Below, piece after piece: positions 9,740 through 29,319 of a stretch of 35,060 nt of DNA; position 1 is the stretch's first letter, and each line of letters opens with the position of its first letter. The notes below the pieces were generated by a model. The model had not been told where the DNA came from. It saw only the letters and a list, made by a program, of their open reading frames with translations, and ran no database searches. Source of the stretch: a virus; IMG/VR virus record IMGVR_UViG_3300025759_000030, positions 1 to 35,060 of that record; one strand, given 5' to 3'. Both the position numbers and the translations under genes were made by a program.

Positions 9740-10363
9740 CTATTCTCCGTAATCAGATTTCATTTGAAGAGCAGAACCAGCAAACTGACTCTCAGCTTCT
9801 TCACGTTTAATCTCTGTAATTGCGCGTGTAAACAACTGCTCATACAAAGCAGTCTTCTGGTCATCCATCAAATATACACCAGCAGCGCCCAAAGAGCCAT
9901 ATAGATATGCGTCAGGATGACGAGTTAAGATTGTATTGCTAGTGTTACTGTCAGACAACTCATCTACACCCTCACCGTAAATAAGCTCTGCCGTGTAGGC
10001 GCTATCAGGTGTAGGTGCAAACTTAATCTCGCTGCCAAAGATTGTATAGGCGCGAGGCTTGCCTGTTGCATTAGATGTGTAGTGGCTGTCAAGCGCCATA
10101 GGCGTGTAATACTCAAGCACTTCAGCAGGTGTTGTATTTAGCTTTACAGAGCGAATAGAACGCAAATCAGTTGGCAGAGAGACAAACGCATCGCCAGCAG
10201 ACAGTGTAGCGTTAGCACGTTTTGTCTGAGAGCGTGTACCAAGCTCACGGCTCATACGCGCCTCTGCAAGAGAGATAAACTCAGGGATACGGTCAGTTAA
10301 ATCATCACGAGCTAAGAAGTTCGCAATCGCCGTTTTAAGTTCTGCGTAAGTTCCGATTGCCAT
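9740..10363 (-). CDS. head-tail adaptor protein (SU10/P22 gp4-like)
   Basis: A 207-residue protein that begins with a helical segment (TYAELKTAIANFLARDDLTD, then IPEFISLAEARMSRELGTR). This is the pattern of the phage adaptor family that docks on the portal and starts the tail. The middle is beta-rich (FVSLPTDLRSIRSVKLN, ELIYGEGVDELSD) and the end is helical, with PDAYLYGSLGAAGVYLMDDQ followed by an acidic/basic tail. The length fits the SU10-type adaptor. It follows the capsid gene and precedes the tail proteins, the usual place. The ATG overlaps the upstream stop (TAATG). Family named from pattern. Confidence 0.7.
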   Translation of the reverse strand: MAIGTYAELKTAIANFLARDDLTDRIPEFISLAEARMSRELGTRSQTKRANATLSAGDAFVSLPTDLRSIRSVKLNTTPAEVLEYYTPMALDSHYTSNATGKPRAYTIFGSEIKFAPTPDSAYTAELIYGEGVDELSDSNTSNTILTRHPDAYLYGSLGAAGVYLMDDQKTALYEQLFTRAITEIKREEAESQFAGSALQMKSDYGE

Positions 10364-10738: not shown

Positions 10739-11677
10739 TTACGACAGGTCGTAAACAGCCGCGTGGGCTTTCGGTGCTGAAACTTTGAGTGTCCATTCAG
10801 TGATGATTTGGAACTTCTCAGAGTCACCCGTCTTCGCCATTTCTTGAACGGTGAAGTTACGGTTAGGCAGTGTGCAGACAGAAGCGTAATCGCTGTCCAA
10901 AAGATACACACGGTCATCCGAAGCAAAACGGTCGATTACAACGTCAAGCTGGCCGAAGTCGCTCAGATAAAGCGAAACTGACCCAACGATAGCTGCTTCA
11001 CGAGGAGCAGTATAGTTGATTTGGTTGGTTGCAACTGAACCGCTGTTCAAGTCGCTGAAAGCGGCTTTCTTAGCAGGAGAAACAACCAGCATGTTAGGCT
11101 GACCACCATCGGTGTAAGCAGCTTGCATTGCAGTGTCGATTTGAGCCAGAGTCAAAGCGCGGTTCGTGCCTGACATATCAGGAACATCCGTGCCGTCACC
11201 AGTAGCAGCAGAAGTGCCAGAAGCATCATCTACGTTGGTAATCCAGCTTGACAAAGTACCAGCTTTACGCGGGTCAGAAGCAGAACGTGCAGTATCAGAG
11301 TGCAGATACTTTTCGATGTCACGACGCAGCTCAAGACCTTTCAAAACTTTTTGATAGGCAACTTCTTTGTCGCGGCCTGCTTTATCAACAGCGTCCAGAG
11401 TACCAGAAACTTGTGCATCTTTTTGCGAGATTTGCATGTAGTTGCCCAAGCGAGTAGTGGCAGTCGGCGTATCATAAGTAGCGTCAGCACCTTCGTTCTG
11501 GTAGTTGGTTGCTGAAGCAGCAGCCAGTTCTTGTACTTGCCATTCGACAAATACGCCATTTCCTGTCTCTTTTTTCAGAGCAGAAAAGATGGGGGTTTCA
11601 TCAGGGTCGATGCGAGTGATTACGTCACTCAGGTCTTCCCGTTCACCAATAGCATTGGCAGTAGTAAATTGAGCCAT
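10739..11677 (-). CDS. major capsid protein (SU10-type, HK97 fold)
   Basis: A 312-residue major head protein. The N-terminus (NAIGEREDLSDVITRIDPDE followed by TPIFSALKKE) and the QMxSQKDAQVSGT-like segment (here MQISQKDAQVSGTLDAVD) match the SU10 family of major capsid proteins. So do LELRRDIEKYLHSDTA, the MLVVSPAKKAAFSDLN strand, and a C-terminal IITEWTLKV strand. The length is normal for the family, and no separate protease or decoration domain is fused. It follows the scaffold gene directly (one base apart from stop to start) and is followed by a stable hairpin, which fits high expression. Confidence 0.85.
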   Translation of the reverse strand: MAQFTTANAIGEREDLSDVITRIDPDETPIFSALKKETGNGVFVEWQVQELAAASATNYQNEGADATYDTPTATTRLGNYMQISQKDAQVSGTLDAVDKAGRDKEVAYQKVLKGLELRRDIEKYLHSDTARSASDPRKAGTLSSWITNVDDASGTSAATGDGTDVPDMSGTNRALTLAQIDTAMQAAYTDGGQPNMLVVSPAKKAAFSDLNSGSVATNQINYTAPREAAIVGSVSLYLSDFGQLDVVIDRFASDDRVYLLDSDYASVCTLPNRNFTVQEMAKTGDSEKFQIITEWTLKVSAPKAHAAVYDLS

Positions 11678-18249: not shown

Positions 18250-18470
18250 CAAGCCTCTCCGTAAATGCCATCTTCCGTAACGCGGATGGACGAAATAATC
18301 TCCATGTATTCGTCAGGCGAAATCTCCGCCATTTGACCACAATACGCAGACGCAAGCAAGGTCAAGTTCAACAGGTCGTCCCAGTCAGTGCCGAGACCAT
18401 TTAGGCCATCAAGGGTGGCAACCAAGATGTCAAAGTCATCTGTGTCTTCTTCAAACTCAATATAAGCCAT
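18249..18470 (-). CDS. small acidic protein of unknown function (73 aa)
   Basis: A 73-residue acidic protein (MAYIEFEEDTDDFDILVATL onward), with a helical end (SPDEYMEIISSIRVTE). Its ATG overlaps the terminase stop by one base (TGATG). It is the only acidic member of the small-gene chain between terminase and portal, and could pair with one of the very basic neighbours. That pairing is only a suggestion. Function unknown. Confidence 0.5.
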   Translation of the reverse strand: MAYIEFEEDTDDFDILVATLDGLNGLGTDWDDLLNLTLLASAYCGQMAEISPDEYMEIISSIRVTEDGIYGEA

Positions 18471-19870
18471 CAGACGACCCAGTTCGCTTTCTCATAATTT
18501 ATTGACCTGTTCCATTTGTGGCGCGAGCCGTCTTTGCCGATGCTGGCGCGACCAGCAAAGGTCAGGCAGAAGGAGTCGGCAAGGTCAGGTGAGTTGAGGC
18601 CACGACGTTTCATCTCGTCCTTGCTCTCAACCTTGAGCTTACCATTGGAGGTAAACTTAAAGCGCGGCTTGGACAGGTCGTCTATTAGCTCCTCTTGCGG
18701 CGGAATGGTGCAGTCCCGCGACTCGAACCATTCTTTTGCGAGAAACCACAACTCATCTCGTAAACGCCCATATCTGTCGCCCATTGCAGGTGACTCCGCG
18801 ACGTTGATACCGCGCACAGGAAGGTCAAGTTCCATGAGACGGTCAACAACGCCAGCACCAAGACCGATACTATCAACCAGTATTTCAGCAGGACGGTCGC
18901 CCCATCGAGTCGTTTCGTATTCATTGAGTATAATCCCACAGACCTCCATGAGGTCTTTGTTGCGCCAAGTTTTGATAGGCTCTGTTACAACATTACCCTT
19001 GCGTTTGCATAGAGCTGTTTTGTCCGTACCGAAACGTGCCACGTCAAGACCCCATACAACGGGGGTGGTTTCTGCTGCTTGCTGCTCTCGCGTGGATGCT
19101 GCCTGCAAGAGATGCAGTGGTACAACCACGTCGTCGTCGGCTTCAGGCCACTCTCCAAGAACACGAACTCGGTAGATGTTGCTGTCTTCGCCATACTTGA
19201 GTTTCATATCCTCCATGAAGGTTTTACTCACCTGAGTACTATCAGATGATGCGACCTTCATTGTAAAGAACCTATCTCTCATTTTATTGAAGGCTTCATA
19301 GAAGTAGCCAGACGTGCGAGTCGGGTTGCCCGTCATCACAGTCTTCGCACCCTCAGTGGACATAGCACCCTCTCCGACCTCGAAGATGATGTCGTCCACA
19401 CCAGATGCCTCATCAATCAAGAACAGCATATTGGGTGAGTGGAAACCTTGCAGCGCCTCTGGAGTTTCACGACGTGCAGTTCGGGCGACAGCAAAACTGT
19501 CCTGCCCCGTAAGCTCAACTTTGTCAGACTTCACTTCAATTAGTTCTTTCAGGCCCTCTGGCATACGACGATGCCACTTTGCGACCTCTGCCCATAAAAT
19601 GTCTGACAACTGACTAGCAGTGTTGGCAGTACATGCTATCCGACTGGGAGAGCGTGTCAATACCCACCAGAGAATCAACCAAGAAAGAAATGCAGTCTTG
19701 CCGATACCGTGACCAGAGCGGATGGCTACGCGGTCATTATCCCGCACAGCATACAAAGCATTACGCTGCCACTCCTCTGGACTGGCCTGCAAGATAGACT
19801 CAACGAATAATACTGGGTCGAGAGCAATGGCAAGCAATAGCTCCTCAACAGACATGTTTTCTTTTTCCAT
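18470..19870 (-). CDS. terL: terminase large subunit (ATPase and nuclease)
   Basis: The DNA-packaging motor. The start at 19870 (MEKENMSVEELLL, 466 aa) is preferred: an AAGGAG ribosome site lies seven bases upstream, and the open frame further up to 20074 runs through the repeat region without family-like sequence. Visible motifs are Walker A GHGIGKT (53-59), Walker B LFLIDEA (149-155), a coupling MTGNPTR (179-185), and nuclease acidic residues in GLDVARFGTDK (D276), ILVDSIG (D333) and SPDLADSF (D429, D432). Length is normal. It lies downstream of a putative small subunit, after a 415-bp gap that holds the repeat cluster. Confidence 0.93.
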   Translation of the reverse strand: MEKENMSVEELLLAIALDPVLFVESILQASPEEWQRNALYAVRDNDRVAIRSGHGIGKTAFLSWLILWWVLTRSPSRIACTANTASQLSDILWAEVAKWHRRMPEGLKELIEVKSDKVELTGQDSFAVARTARRETPEALQGFHSPNMLFLIDEASGVDDIIFEVGEGAMSTEGAKTVMTGNPTRTSGYFYEAFNKMRDRFFTMKVASSDSTQVSKTFMEDMKLKYGEDSNIYRVRVLGEWPEADDDVVVPLHLLQAASTREQQAAETTPVVWGLDVARFGTDKTALCKRKGNVVTEPIKTWRNKDLMEVCGIILNEYETTRWGDRPAEILVDSIGLGAGVVDRLMELDLPVRGINVAESPAMGDRYGRLRDELWFLAKEWFESRDCTIPPQEELIDDLSKPRFKFTSNGKLKVESKDEMKRRGLNSPDLADSFCLTFAGRASIGKDGSRHKWNRSINYEKANWVV

Positions 19871-20285
19871 CTCTCTCTCCTTGTTATGATGGGGCGAGCC
19901 GAAAGGGAAAGAAGCCCGCCCCACCGTCGGGAGCGTCAAGGAGGAGAAACGCTCAACCGATTTTGTTATCTCCTCTGTTGCAAATATGACACAGGGCGGA
20001 GCGGTCTGCAAGGGGTGACAATCTGACATGGGGGGTACGGCACACTGCCACCCTCCCCTACGGCACACTGCCACCCTAATATATCAGAAAGAATATATCA
20101 TTTAATCTTATTTACTACGGCACAGTGCCACCCCTAAATGAGAGGAAGAAAAAAGAAGAAAAAAATTTTTATGGGGGTAGTTACTTACGAGCTGTGGAGA
20201 ACAGGGGGGGTGTTGTAAAAAGGTCACAGTGTTGGTTTATATATATACGTATAACGCACCCCCGCCGCTCAAATCAAAGGGGGGT
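19871..20285. other. 415-bp non-coding gap with repeat cluster, candidate origin or packaging region
   Basis: No gene with a ribosome site was found here. Contents from left to right: a possible hairpin (GGGGCGAGC / GCCCGCCCC, one mismatch) just upstream of the terminase start (about 19891-19922), the three 19-bp elements with their AT-rich spacer (20036-20134), a purine-rich run (about 20140-20163), TGTGGAGAA (20193-20201, one base from the inverted DnaA box TGTGGATAA), a G run, and an AT-rich TATATATATACGTATA stretch (about 20239-20255). A replication origin or a packaging start site are the main possibilities. Confidence 0.5.
20036..20134 (+). repeat. composite iteron-like site, copy 1 (three 19-bp elements with AT-rich spacer)
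   Basis: Elements at 20036-20054 and 20059-20077 are identical (TACGGCACACTGCCACCCT). The third, 20116-20134, is TACGGCACAGTGCCACCCC. Each contains an inverted repeat (GGCA...TGCC). A 38-bp AT-rich spacer between elements 2 and 3 carries AATATATCA twice. The same arrangement recurs on the minus strand at 24049-24157. Protein-binding iterons around an unwinding element are the likeliest reading. Confidence 0.75.
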
Positions 20286-20657
20286 CTAATCGCTCTTATC
20301 GTTCTCGCTCTGTTCTTCGCTAAATTCTGCCTCTATAACTTGCGCTTTCTCACTACGTTGTAATTCCAATGCGCTTTGCACATTAGATAGAGCAGCCGTT
20401 AGGCTATCGCTTGGCGATATCTCAGCATTAAGGTTGATGTTCTTAGGCATAAGCGTTGCCAATAGGCGCAAGGCTTCAATAGGCCGCTCATCTATTTCAC
20501 TAGCAATAGTCTGAGCCAGCGCATCTTGCCCGCCGTGCTTCTCTATTGCCTTGTCAAATACATTTGCAAGCTGACTTGATAGCCGTTGCCAGCCCCCACC
20601 ATGCCCACCATTCTTATAAGGTTTACGCCCGCGTGTTTCTTTAACTGAATTAGTCAT
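20286..20657 (-). CDS. putative terminase small subunit (123 aa)
   Basis: A 123-residue protein whose start (20657) is preceded by an AGGA site ten bases away. The N-terminus is basic and Gly-rich (RGRKPYKNGGHGGGW), the middle is helical (ANVFDKAIEKHGGQDALAQT), and a PIEALRLLATLMPKNINLN segment lies near 75-93. A helical acidic tail (residues 95-123) would be the oligomer- or large-subunit-contact part. The LRLLATLMPK-type segment is common in small proteins encoded just before phage terminases. It is the first gene of the late block. No helix-turn-helix was identified with certainty, so the role rests on position and pattern. Confidence 0.5.
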   Translation of the reverse strand: MTNSVKETRGRKPYKNGGHGGGWQRLSSQLANVFDKAIEKHGGQDALAQTIASEIDERPIEALRLLATLMPKNINLNAEISPSDSLTAALSNVQSALELQRSEKAQVIEAEFSEEQSENDKSD

Positions 20658-23120: not shown

Positions 23121-23837
23121 TTAAAGGCTATCTAAGCTAGGCACTGTGGGTCTAAGGTTATCTGGCAGGTCATCATGTGCCAAATCAAACGGGTCAAACT
23201 TCGGCGCAGTATGCCCCGCCTTAATCAAATCCATGTTAATCTTGCCGCTATCATCTGGCAGATGTTCGGCTGGCGTTGCCTGTTTAGCTGGCGGAGCAAT
23301 GTCTGCATTACCGCCCAGCCGTTCAATCGCTTTGAGTGGTATCTTGCGGAGAATTTCACCCATGCCGCGCCCTAACTCACCGCTTGCGATTTGCCTGTCG
23401 GTTTCGGCTAGTGCCTTTCTCGCGCCTTCCAGCGTCCAGCCTTCGCCTTTCTTTCTGGTTTCGTCTGCCCCTGCCTGTCCACTGAATACCCGCGCCTCTT
23501 TCTTTGTGCCGTGTTTAGCTTCCCATGCCCGATTGGCTTGGTTGGTTGCGCTGATAATGTCGGCAAGGTTAAACCAAAAACGAGAACGCGCCTTTGACGT
23601 GCAGCCTCGCCAGATAGTGCGGAGCAAGTCCTTATAGCTGTCATTGTTCGGCACATCGGCACTGATGCGACTGTTGATAGCTTCCGCGACCTCTTGCATG
23701 TAAATGCCTGCCCCGTCGCCTTCTTTCAAATGCGTGTGCGGCTGATACAAAAGCCCCATCTGTTTGCAAAAGTTTTCTCTTACAAGTGCGATGCGCGACT
23801 CGTAAGTCATGGTATCTTTCTTTTCAAATTCTTTCAT
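23121..23837 (-). CDS. protein of unknown function in the replication region (238 aa)
   Basis: A 238-residue hydrophilic protein with an AAAGGGACTAAG ribosome site. The N-terminal 100 residues look folded and helical (TYESRIALVRENFCKQMGLL; YKDLLRTIWRGCTSKARSRF), then a basic linker and a Pro/Asp-rich C-terminal tail (TAPKFDPFDLAHDDLPDNL). It is last in the leftward set that includes the winged-helix gene, the place held by gene P (helicase loader) in lambda. No helicase-loader motif was seen, so this is only a positional hint. Confidence 0.45.
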   Translation of the reverse strand: MKEFEKKDTMTYESRIALVRENFCKQMGLLYQPHTHLKEGDGAGIYMQEVAEAINSRISADVPNNDSYKDLLRTIWRGCTSKARSRFWFNLADIISATNQANRAWEAKHGTKKEARVFSGQAGADETRKKGEGWTLEGARKALAETDRQIASGELGRGMGEILRKIPLKAIERLGGNADIAPPAKQATPAEHLPDDSGKINMDLIKAGHTAPKFDPFDLAHDDLPDNLRPTVPSLDSL

Positions 23838-23981: not shown

Positions 23982-24426
23982 TGCTCTTACCTAATATCTG
24001 ATTAGCGAAATCTGTCCAATCTGTTTCTTTCTCATCTTCTTCTTTCGAGGGGTGGCGTTCTGCCGTAGTAATAGAAGAAGATATATTATCTGATTTATTA
24101 GTTGATATATTAATGGGGCGGCACGTTGCCGTAGCTGGCGCGGCACTCTGCCGCCCCTCATTCGGCTTGTGTATCGTGTAGAGATTGCTCGTTTGTCTGC
24201 CGCCATTGTTGCGGCGAGAGACAAAAAGATACCCCTGTTTCTTTAGTGCCGCCACCTTCCTTTGCACTGTTCTGCTGTCCAGCCCCGTTAGCTTGGCAAT
24301 ACGCGCCGCGCTGGGAAAGCACTGCCATTGCTCATCAGCATGTTTGGCAATCATAAGCAGCACAAACTTAGCCGTAGGGTCGGCTATCGGCTGCTCACAA
24401 ACCCAGTCCATCGCCTTGTAACTCAT
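23950..24426 (-). CDS. winged-helix replication-initiator-like protein carrying internal iterons (158 aa)
   Basis: A 158-residue protein. Residues 1-85 form a winged helix of the HTH_36/initiator type: KAMDWVCEQPIADPTAKFVL, CFPSAARIAKLTGLDSRTVQ (recognition part), KVAALKKQGYLFVSRRNNGG (wing). Residues about 90-130 are a low-complexity Asn/Ser/Thr/Ala linker, and the DNA encoding it is the repeat cluster 24049-24157. The C-terminus is acidic. Gene and repeats together copy the plan of lambda O, whose iterons lie within its own linker region. It overlaps the upstream gene by four bases (ATGA). Replication initiation is inferred; a transcription-regulator role is also possible. Confidence 0.6.
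   Translation of the reverse strand: MSYKAMDWVCEQPIADPTAKFVLLMIAKHADEQWQCFPSAARIAKLTGLDSRTVQRKVAALKKQGYLFVSRRNNGGRQTSNLYTIHKPNEGRQSAAPATATCRPINISTNKSDNISSSITTAERHPSKEEDEKETDWTDFANQILGKSNGRDDSKMGD
24049..24157 (-). repeat. composite iteron-like site, copy 2, inside the winged-helix gene
   Basis: On the minus strand 24133-24115 reads TACGGCAACGTGCCGCCCC and 24067-24049 reads TACGGCAGAACGCCACCCC. On the plus strand 24139-24157 reads CGCGGCACTCTGCCGCCCC. The 47-bp spacer between the first two is AT-rich and holds AATATATCA once, plus near copies. Order, spacing style and the spacer motif repeat those at 20036-20134. Confidence 0.75.
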
Positions 24427-24872
24427 GCTTGCCCGTCCCAGAGGTTGATAAAGTTTGCCACTGGCAGATTGACAACTGGCTCTGTGTCATACTTGTCCCG
24501 CATATTATTGCGCCCCCCGATAGTGATTTCAGGCAGCGGCGAGGCGAGTTTGATGTAACCGCACTTGTCCGTCCACTGAACGACAAACAGAGCGGGTAGC
24601 CCTGTAAACTCTGACATCTCCAGAAGGTTTCTGGCTTTGTTCAGGCTGATGAATACGCTATCAAAGACCCCGAAGCGATGGCTACGGCAGCGTATCTCGC
24701 ACATTGCCTTTGCCATTACCCGCTTGCTGTCGCCTGCCTCTGTCAGAAAGAAGTCGGTATAATATTCGTGGGGCATCTTGACAGCACCACAGTTCCACTT
24801 CTTCTTGATGCGCTCGACAATCCGAAGCTCACCATCTAGGTCTGATTGGCTTTCATATTTTTCTCTTCTCAT
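24423..24872 (-). CDS. putative PD-(D/E)XK-type nuclease (149 aa)
   Basis: The start at 24872 (MRREKYESQSD) is preferred because it overlaps the upstream stop in ATGA with GGAG eight bases before it; the open frame extends nine codons further. The likely core runs through PHEYYTDFFLTEAGDSKRVM, then KAMCEIRCRSHRFGVFDSVF (an E-x-R in place of the usual E-x-K), ISLNKARNLLEMSEFTGLPA, and LFVVQWTDKCGYIKL. This alternation is that of PD-(D/E)XK nucleases. Position next to a resolvase-like gene supports a DNA-processing role. The family assignment is tentative. Confidence 0.45.
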   Translation of the reverse strand: MRREKYESQSDLDGELRIVERIKKKWNCGAVKMPHEYYTDFFLTEAGDSKRVMAKAMCEIRCRSHRFGVFDSVFISLNKARNLLEMSEFTGLPALFVVQWTDKCGYIKLASPLPEITIGGRNNMRDKYDTEPVVNLPVANFINLWDGQA

Positions 24873-25309
24873 ACCAGCCACTCCCGCATGACACTGCAAG
24901 CGTCCTCAAGCGTGGTGAATGTGACGGGCAACATTGCATTGCCCTCTGTAGGCCAGCTATATTGGTCTGATTGCCCGACAGCCCACTCAGAATTTACCGC
25001 ATAAATCGGCATCGTCACCCGAATGGGAAGCCTGTCATATTTCCAGATAAGCACGGGTATCATGTTTAGCCTCGCGGCGGCACGATTGACCTGCTCTATC
25101 CAATCCTTCTGATACCAGCTACCCTTTGCATAACGCTTGCACTCAATGGCAAACGGCTCAAGCTCTATGTCACATAAATCAACATCTTGATATTGTGACA
25201 AGTTGCGCCGCAAATCTTGCGGAATAACCATGTCACCCATGATTAGCCGCAACTCTGATATTACCTTGCGCTCAAAATTTAAACCCTTGTTTCTCGCCAT
25301 CTTTGACAT
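24869..25309 (-). CDS. Holliday-junction-resolvase-like nuclease (146 aa)
   Basis: The start at 25309 (MSKMARNKGLNFERKV) has an AAAGGG site eight bases upstream; a longer frame to 25414 lies wholly over the upstream gene and looks spurious. The nuclease core shows E13 in GLNFERKVISEL, then D44/D47 in QDVDLCDIELEP, and E56-x-K58 in FAIECKRYAKGSWYQKDW, the PD-(D/E)XK pattern of resolvase-like phage nucleases. It would cut branched DNA made during replication and recombination, easing packaging. It overlaps the next gene by four bases (ATGA). Confidence 0.6.
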   Translation of the reverse strand: MSKMARNKGLNFERKVISELRLIMGDMVIPQDLRRNLSQYQDVDLCDIELEPFAIECKRYAKGSWYQKDWIEQVNRAAARLNMIPVLIWKYDRLPIRVTMPIYAVNSEWAVGQSDQYSWPTEGNAMLPVTFTTLEDACSVMREWLV

Positions 25310-25457
25310 AAAAACACCCTTTCGAAAAATAATGTTCTGGCAACTCTCTCTTTGCCTCTTCACACATTTGCGCGGTTGGGAATGGCGGCGAGTATTTAAT
25401 GGAACGCTCGTCACCCCAAGCCAATATCCAACCCGTTATTGCGACGACCTCAATCAA
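25272..25457 (-). CDS. small protein of unknown function (61 aa)
   Basis: A 61-residue protein with a hydrophobic N-terminus (IEVVAITGWILAWG) that could be a signal anchor or a beta strand, followed by FPTAQMCEEAKRELPEHYF and a Cys-containing basic end. The FPTAQMCEEA-like segment occurs in many small phage proteins of this type. It overlaps the repressor gene by eight bases and the nuclease gene by 38. Function unknown. Confidence 0.45.
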   Translation of the reverse strand: MIEVVAITGWILAWGDERSIKYSPPFPTAQMCEEAKRELPEHYFSKGCFYVKDGEKQGFKF

Positions 25458-28510: not shown

Positions 28511-28849
28511 ATGAGCGGAACAGCCTACAAATGCGGTCAATGCAATGGGCAGGGTGTTCTGCTCATCAATATTTCATCAGATGGAGAAGGCGGCAGCTTC
28601 ATGGAGAAGCCCTGTCCGACCTGTGGGGGAAGAGGATTGATTACAAAAGCAGAGCTAATGACGTGTGCAGCAGATGCCACGTTTGAACCAAATGAAATGA
28701 TTGCCATACCTATGACAGGCGCAATGCGTGTCTATGTGGACGGCGAAGTATTCCAACGCAAGATGTCATCGCGTCAGCTATACAAGCTGGCACACTATGC
28801 GCTAGGCGTGGCGATGGAGACAGAAGCATATGAAAAGGAAAACAAATGA
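28511..28849 (+). CDS. DnaJ-type zinc-finger protein (112 aa)
   Basis: A 112-residue protein with two DnaJ-type CxxCxGxG motifs near the start: CGQCNGQG (8-15) and CPTCGGRG (35-42), which together bind zinc. The rest is mixed, with a beta strand (MTGAMRVYVDGEVFQRK) and a C-terminal helix (MSSRQLYKLAHYALGVAM). No J domain is present. It overlaps the DnaA-like gene by four bases (ATGA). Possible roles are replication-complex assembly or host control. Compare the shorter one at 22843. Confidence 0.6.
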   Translation: MSGTAYKCGQCNGQGVLLINISSDGEGGSFMEKPCPTCGGRGLITKAELMTCAADATFEPNEMIAIPMTGAMRVYVDGEVFQRKMSSRQLYKLAHYALGVAMETEAYEKENK

Positions 28850-29319
28850 AGGTAGATGTTCAAGTTACCCTGAAAGATGAAGCCGAAAATGTTGAGGAGT
28901 TTACTATCGGCAGTGCATTGAAAGCAGTCTCAGAGGTTTTTGGCGTAAGGAAAGATGACCTACTTAGCTCACGCAGGGCTAGGTATATAACTACGCCACG
29001 ATTCGCTTTGATGTATCTTGGTTACTACATGACGCACAATAGCACTACCACAGTCGGCAGGTTTTTAGACCGTGACCACACGACAATCATTCATGGCTGT
29101 CGCCGTGCTATCGAACTCAAGCGCAGCAACAAAGCGTTTGCAAAGAAACTAGAGGAAGCAACACAGTTGGCGATTAAATATGACAGACAACGCAGAAAAA
29201 AGATTGAAGCCTTCAAGCGGGAAGTCGAAGAGCGAATGGAAAGCGCTTGCAAAGGAGTGGCGCTTGAGGGCTACATTAGCGGAGAGAAGGTTGTCTTTGA
29301 TAGCGTCTATACCGAATGA
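28846..29319 (+). CDS. free-standing DnaA domain IV-like protein (157 aa)
   Basis: A 157-residue protein whose residues about 24-92 match the DNA-binding domain IV of DnaA. ALKAVSEVFGVRKDDLLSSR, then RARYITTPRFALMYLGYYMT and VGRFLDRDHTTIIHGCRRAI follow the DnaA pattern, including the signature DHTTIIHG that reads DnaA boxes. There is no AAA+ ATPase domain, so it can bind DNA but not open it alone. The C-terminal 60 residues are a charged helix and a short beta end. It may block or redirect host DnaA, or recruit the host replisome to the phage origin. Confidence 0.82.
   Translation: MKVDVQVTLKDEAENVEEFTIGSALKAVSEVFGVRKDDLLSSRRARYITTPRFALMYLGYYMTHNSTTTVGRFLDRDHTTIIHGCRRAIELKRSNKAFAKKLEEATQLAIKYDRQRRKKIEAFKREVEERMESACKGVALEGYISGEKVVFDSVYTE

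Follow-up and report, generated by a model that had tools for sequence, protein, structure and literature searches.

To our knowledge, very few cases are known of phage initiator systems with two sites, SPP1 being the foremost, and the reason for a second site in phages is unsettled. Phage P4 has two iteron sites, ori and crr, about 4 kb apart and served by one initiator; P4 alpha is a primase-helicase, and the P4 sites are not placed inside its own gene in the manner described below. In lambda and the Stx phages the O protein has a linker just after its winged helix, and dyad iterons with 20-24 bp spacing (20, 24 and 23 bp in lambda) are accompanied by an AT-rich tract, which in lambda lies beside the iterons; the lambda stretches searched showed no second array. 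The length of the linker varies with iteron number in lambda and Stx phage O proteins (PMC7466680). In the Bacillus phage SPP1 the initiator gp38 binds at oriL, inside gene 38, and at a distant, non-coding oriR, with a fork-stalling role having been proposed for oriR (PMC6316719).

The DNA analyzed here, hereafter the window, is the whole of a 35,060-base virus record from a phage that we describe as marine, and its nearest named relative is Phage C72C1. The window carries one array of dyad elements inside the gene for an O-like protein (array 1) and another in non-coding DNA (array 2), as presented in Table 1. By comparison with described systems, the mode appears to resemble the in-gene origin of lambda, and the arrays as a pair point to SPP1 oriL and oriR. 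As in SPP1, an initiator gene with internal repeats and an AT-rich region is joined by a second, similarly organized site elsewhere (PMC6316719), here array 2; this is a likeness of layout. The two sites are about 13 kb apart in SPP1 but about 4 kb apart in the window, the second site lies upstream of the large terminase gene (TerL) unlike in SPP1, and SPP1 encodes its own DnaB-type helicase whereas none was recognized in the window. With phage P4 the window shares two iteron sites about 4 kb apart and one binder, which is here a predicted one.

Table 1. Positions of the arrays, their elements and neighboring genes in the window
Feature	Position	Strand	Description
Array 1, in-gene origin candidate	24049..24157	-	three dyad elements around AT-rich spacer
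Element A	24139..24157	+	CGCGGCACTCTGCCGCCCC, perfect dyad CGGCA-N3-TGCCG
Element B	24115..24133	-	TACGGCAACGTGCCGCCCC, perfect dyad
Element C	24049..24067	-	TACGGCAGAACGCCACCCC, imperfect dyad
AT-rich spacer, array 1	24068..24114		47 bp, 83% A+T, AATATATC repeats
Array 2	20012..20134	+	non-coding second array upstream of TerL gene; absent from first-pass annotation
Array 2 outer element	20012..20029	+	GGGGTGACAATCTGACAT, TGACA-type half-site
Array 2 element 1	20036..20054	+	TACGGCACACTGCCACCCT
Array 2 element 2	20059..20077	+	TACGGCACACTGCCACCCT
AT-rich spacer, array 2	20078..20115		84% A+T over 20079-20115; AATATATCA twice
Array 2 element 3	20116..20134	+	TACGGCACAGTGCCACCCC
Large terminase (TerL)	18470..19870	-	alignment with phage C72C1 puts the true start near 19870
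TerS-position gene	20286..20657	-	so named by position only; AT-hook-like start; no family match
Initiator "O", 158 aa	23950..24426	-	HTH_36 winged helix, Asn/Ser/Thr linker, acidic C-terminal tail
238-aa protein	23121..23837	-	just downstream of initiator; no Pfam, PHROG or phage match

The initiator gene and its internal array

Residues 17-67 of the 158-aa protein form an HTH_36 winged helix (Pfam PF13730, E 3e-15). The Asn/Ser/Thr linker, whose coding DNA carries array 1, follows directly on the C-terminal side, and the acidic tail at the C-terminus (KEEDEKETDWTDFANQILG) is common to most relatives. The protein matched PHROGs 1032, 270 (replication initiation), 391, 678 and 8540 (O-like) with E values of 1e-16 to 5e-21, and for the O-like initiator PHROGs 391, 678, 8540 and 1032 the profile match spanned both winged helix and linker. 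No match was obtained to the lambda O family PF04492, which lambda O itself does match with the same Pfam library. These profiles place the 158-aa protein among the O-type replication initiators, with an HTH_36 domain and outside the Pfam family of lambda O. No relative of it was confirmed in the cellular genome collection. The phage had been described in the first-pass annotation as having no polymerase of its own, and indeed no polymerase or helicase family was recognized among the larger ORFs and proteins scanned, so that host replication enzymes are likely used. Directly upstream of the initiator gene, at 24423-25414 (minus strand), two adjacent genes encode different predicted PD-(D/E)XK nucleases and are kept at this place in most relatives.

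Three 19-bp elements around a 47-bp AT-rich spacer had been reported within the linker-coding stretch of this gene, and we found them exactly there, just past the HTH domain. The dyad CGGCA-N3-TGCCG, 11-13 bp long, occurs in every element, with perfect symmetry in A and B but not in C. Dyad centers are 22 bp apart from B to A and 66 bp apart across the spacer, and the two outer dyads together make up a strong inverted repeat. Few 47-mers of the window match the spacer in AT content (9 of 35,014 are as AT-rich, the spacer itself among them), and it is probably an unwinding element. In the relative L004 this place is taken by three copies of AATATATC at a spacing of 12 bp. When linker codons 79-130 were recoded synonymously with the window's own codon usage, three equally good elements arose in none of 20,000 recodings.

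The linker dyad iterons of lambda-type origins thus have their counterpart in the window (22 bp spacing, B to A), as does the adjoining AT-rich region (83% A+T). The earlier proposal, a lambda O-like origin to which the product of its own gene binds, is strengthened by homology to O-like and replication-initiation PHROGs and by the iteron and AT-tract anatomy. This anatomy persists in relatives with only 40-58% identity in the protein, and the sequence of the elements varies together with the winged-helix domain, which adds to the support. The parallel with lambda is loosened by the Pfam family, PF13730 in place of PF04492, and by the AT tract, which lies between the elements rather than beside them. 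From these sequence features, a lambda-like in-gene origin at array 1 is well supported. The core idea of the first-pass annotation is right in kind, but its coordinates cover half of the system: it had missed another array of the same quality at a distance of 4 kb, so the origin cannot be assigned to 24049-24157 alone.

Similar initiators with G-flanked dyads in the linker were found in mEp044, Pae_U7, Pam5, JBD68 and C72C1, with HTH_36 tested directly in mEp044 and C72C1, and Pae_U7 and JBD68 identified by tblastn similarity. Neither these five phages nor lambda showed a second array where their sequences were searched, some records being covered partly; for C72C1, a distant relative, this counts against the two-site reading given below. 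In-gene iterons look general for HTH_36-like initiators, on a reading of about eight linkers rather than a systematic count. A pattern scan of viral contigs gave many single hits besides, which were taken as chance. No O-like gene is listed in the annotation of the terminase relatives MW202879 and phiM5.

A second array upstream of the large terminase gene

Array 2 was reached in two ways, by a pattern derived from the in-gene elements and by a matrix built from the three array 1 elements alone. With the matrix run over the whole 35 kb, the next best sites were at 20116 (25.4 bits) and at 20059 and 20036 (21.4 bits each), with nothing above 13.8 bits outside both arrays; three such sites occurred in none of 200 random genomes. 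The linker DNA scored 53 against array 2 and at most 26 elsewhere in the window. Array 2 consists of an element, 4 bp, an element, an AT-rich spacer with AATATATCA, and a further element, which matches the order met in array 1 when the initiator gene is followed along its coding strand. It lies outside genes, about 165-265 bp upstream of the TerL start and short of the next gene, and in L004 the counterpart of its outer element is a perfect dyad, TGACATTCTGTCA. A near DnaA-box match beside array 2 (TTCTCCACA) was set aside, as it is missing in L004. The TerS-position gene has several divergent alleles in relatives, at 29-34% identity.

Change of both arrays with initiator type

The relatives compared were metagenomic contigs, few in number and partly related to each other. 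The initiator was found in L001-L006, L009-L012 and L086, with identities ranging from 97% to about 40-44%, and array 2 is present on several of these contigs. Relatives that keep the protein while losing the elements would have spoken against the in-gene origin, and none was seen. Five initiator types were distinguished (the window with L001-L003; L004; G007-G009; G010; L086), and in each the linker elements surround AT-rich DNA and are matched in type by the array 2 that their own contig carries. The linker scored higher against its own array 2 than elsewhere in G010 (72 versus 24), L086 (55 versus 22), L004 (49 versus 23), L001 (59 versus 20) and G008 (34 versus 26), although the G008 linker scored 39 against array 2 of L004. 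The own pairing of arrays was the best of 120 permutations of the five types, and with G006 included 4 of 720 permutations were equally good; this is support and not proof, the test being small and the types few and partly related (L004 resembles G007-G009).

Comparison of individual genomes bears on what the arrays follow, the window and G010 being the most informative pair. G010 and the window have TerL and TerS-position proteins that are 98% identical and nearly identical flanks of the gap, yet their initiators are only 49% identical, and in G010 both arrays are GTGACAG-type with the spacers switched too. Conversely, the TerS-position protein of L001 is only 29% identical to that of the window, whereas its initiator is 96% identical and its array 2 is window-type. 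Initiators with a VRRK helix (L004, G007-G009) go with GGGCA-type elements in both arrays. Spacer sequence also tracks initiator type, and not the 238-aa protein or a DnaA-domain protein encoded elsewhere in the window. A one-residue code, in which the recognition-helix residue preceding RK (Q, R or H) would specify CGGCA, GGGCA or TGACA, was dropped, since C72C1 has VRRK and TGACA-type elements.

Array 2 of L086 was located by its flank alone and read before the initiator gene of this contig was looked at. It contained TATAGTCA...TGAC elements and a AAGAGATA spacer. A strict search of the L086 initiator gene for the dyad of its array 2 found none; the linker carries TATAGTCA...TGACCATAAGAGATA, together with GTGACCATAAGAGATA and an AT-rich run. 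The prediction from array 2 to in-gene elements was confirmed in kind, not to the letter. In L086 (8048-8085) and L082 (7468-7505), the array 2 spacer is made of three AAGAGATATT repeats, 14 bp apart, where the window has AATATATCA.

Both arrays track initiator type with the exception of G006, a point which bears on a single binder of the SPP1 type. G006 (L072) has a TGACA-type, G010-like initiator with matching in-gene elements, yet its array 2 is window-type. Between positions of about 1389 and 6195 (~4.8 kb, array 2 included) it matches L001 at 99-100% identity, but it diverges across the initiator gene, so it is either a recombinant or an assembly chimera. If it is a true recombinant, array 2 need not match the initiator. 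The exchanged initiator gene lies at 892-1389 of L072, which would be a recombination hotspot or the joint of a chimera.

The distance between the arrays stays at about 3.7-4.6 kb. In the window, G010 and L086 the arrays face in opposite directions, and in G007-G009 they face in the same direction. Compared with the window, G007 (L073), G008 (L075) and L009 carry the initiator/nuclease block flipped with respect to the terminase.

Proposed mechanism and alternative explanations

We favor the reading, to which we give a probability of roughly two in three (0.68), that the 158-aa protein binds both arrays and that at least one of them is a replication origin, in a manner like SPP1 oriL and oriR. 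The initiator would bind the short elements, with a class consensus of CGGCA-N3-TGCC, at array 1 and array 2, probably as one dimer per dyad. The AT-rich tract flanked by the elements at each site would then open, and a loader would bring the host DnaB helicase to the site that fires. This loader is perhaps the 238-aa protein, a candidate by position only, whose gene stays downstream of O in relatives.

An unlikely but serious alternative is that one array alone is the origin and the other a control site, acting in initiator autoregulation, in looping or handcuffing, or as a fork-stalling block that starts concatemers near the packaging genes. The fork-stalling model for SPP1 oriR (PMC6316719), the position of array 2 next to the terminase gene and the strong inverted repeat of array 1 would all suit such a role. 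Both arrays, however, keep an AT-rich spacer between elements, for which an operator or road block pure and simple would have no use, and the spacer sequence tracks initiator type as well. We regard it as improbable that array 2 serves the terminase operon as a transcriptional operator or as a site for packaging (pac/cos), its likeness to array 1 being a relic of duplication. Its place between the TerS-position gene and TerL would suit this explanation, but array 2 is independent of the TerS-position protein, being unchanged in L001 and switched in G010, renewed matching in five types is not what a relic would show, and a scan of 19800-20320 for sigma-70-like promoters, the one type covered, found none.

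The phage encodes further DNA-binding domains, and binding by the O-like protein is itself a prediction, so the arrays might be bound by another of its proteins, such as the 238-aa, the DnaA-domain or a repressor-like protein. This appears more improbable still, as the arrays change with the O-like protein alone. They remain window-type in L001, where identity of the 238-aa protein has fallen to 63%, and in L003, where that of the DnaA-domain protein has fallen to 46%. Such linkers have repetitive protein sequences, which might have made the repeats a chance or coding by-product of low complexity. That explanation is refuted by the synonymous recodings, by the non-coding second copy and by L003, in which the dyad is preserved despite amino-acid changes.

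A stronger form of the favored two-site reading, which we advance only tentatively, is that the initiator evolves together with both origins, in-gene and distant, as a single unit of specificity in which the two sites are required, the distant array being kept matched to the in-gene one when phages swap initiator alleles. It is likewise possible, at odds well short of even, that between the window and G010 a non-coding site of 100-130 bp was replaced within nearly identical DNA on this account, perhaps by copying from the in-gene array. The natural allele swaps cover at least four to five initiator specificities among genomes that are related and in part nearly identical, the two sites having changed accordingly, so that the need for a second site and the amino-acid/base code of HTH_36 initiators become directly testable. 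They also suggest a rule for finding origins in uncultured phages, which is to look for repeats in the linker of an O-like gene and then for their copy.

With respect to other origin signals, GC skew tracked gene strand with no clear minimum at either array, and the DnaA box TTWTNCACA occurred once in the window, away from both arrays. A 157-aa protein encoded at 28846-29319 (plus strand) has DnaA domain IV (Bac_DnaA_C, E 5e-18) without the ATPase part. The ends of the window and of G010 each adjoin or lie near one another in the other genome, and these two therefore appear to behave as complete, circularly permuted genomes; the genome is about 35 kb. The genes at 10742-11677 and 9743-10363 (minus strand) encode SU10-type major capsid and adaptor proteins.
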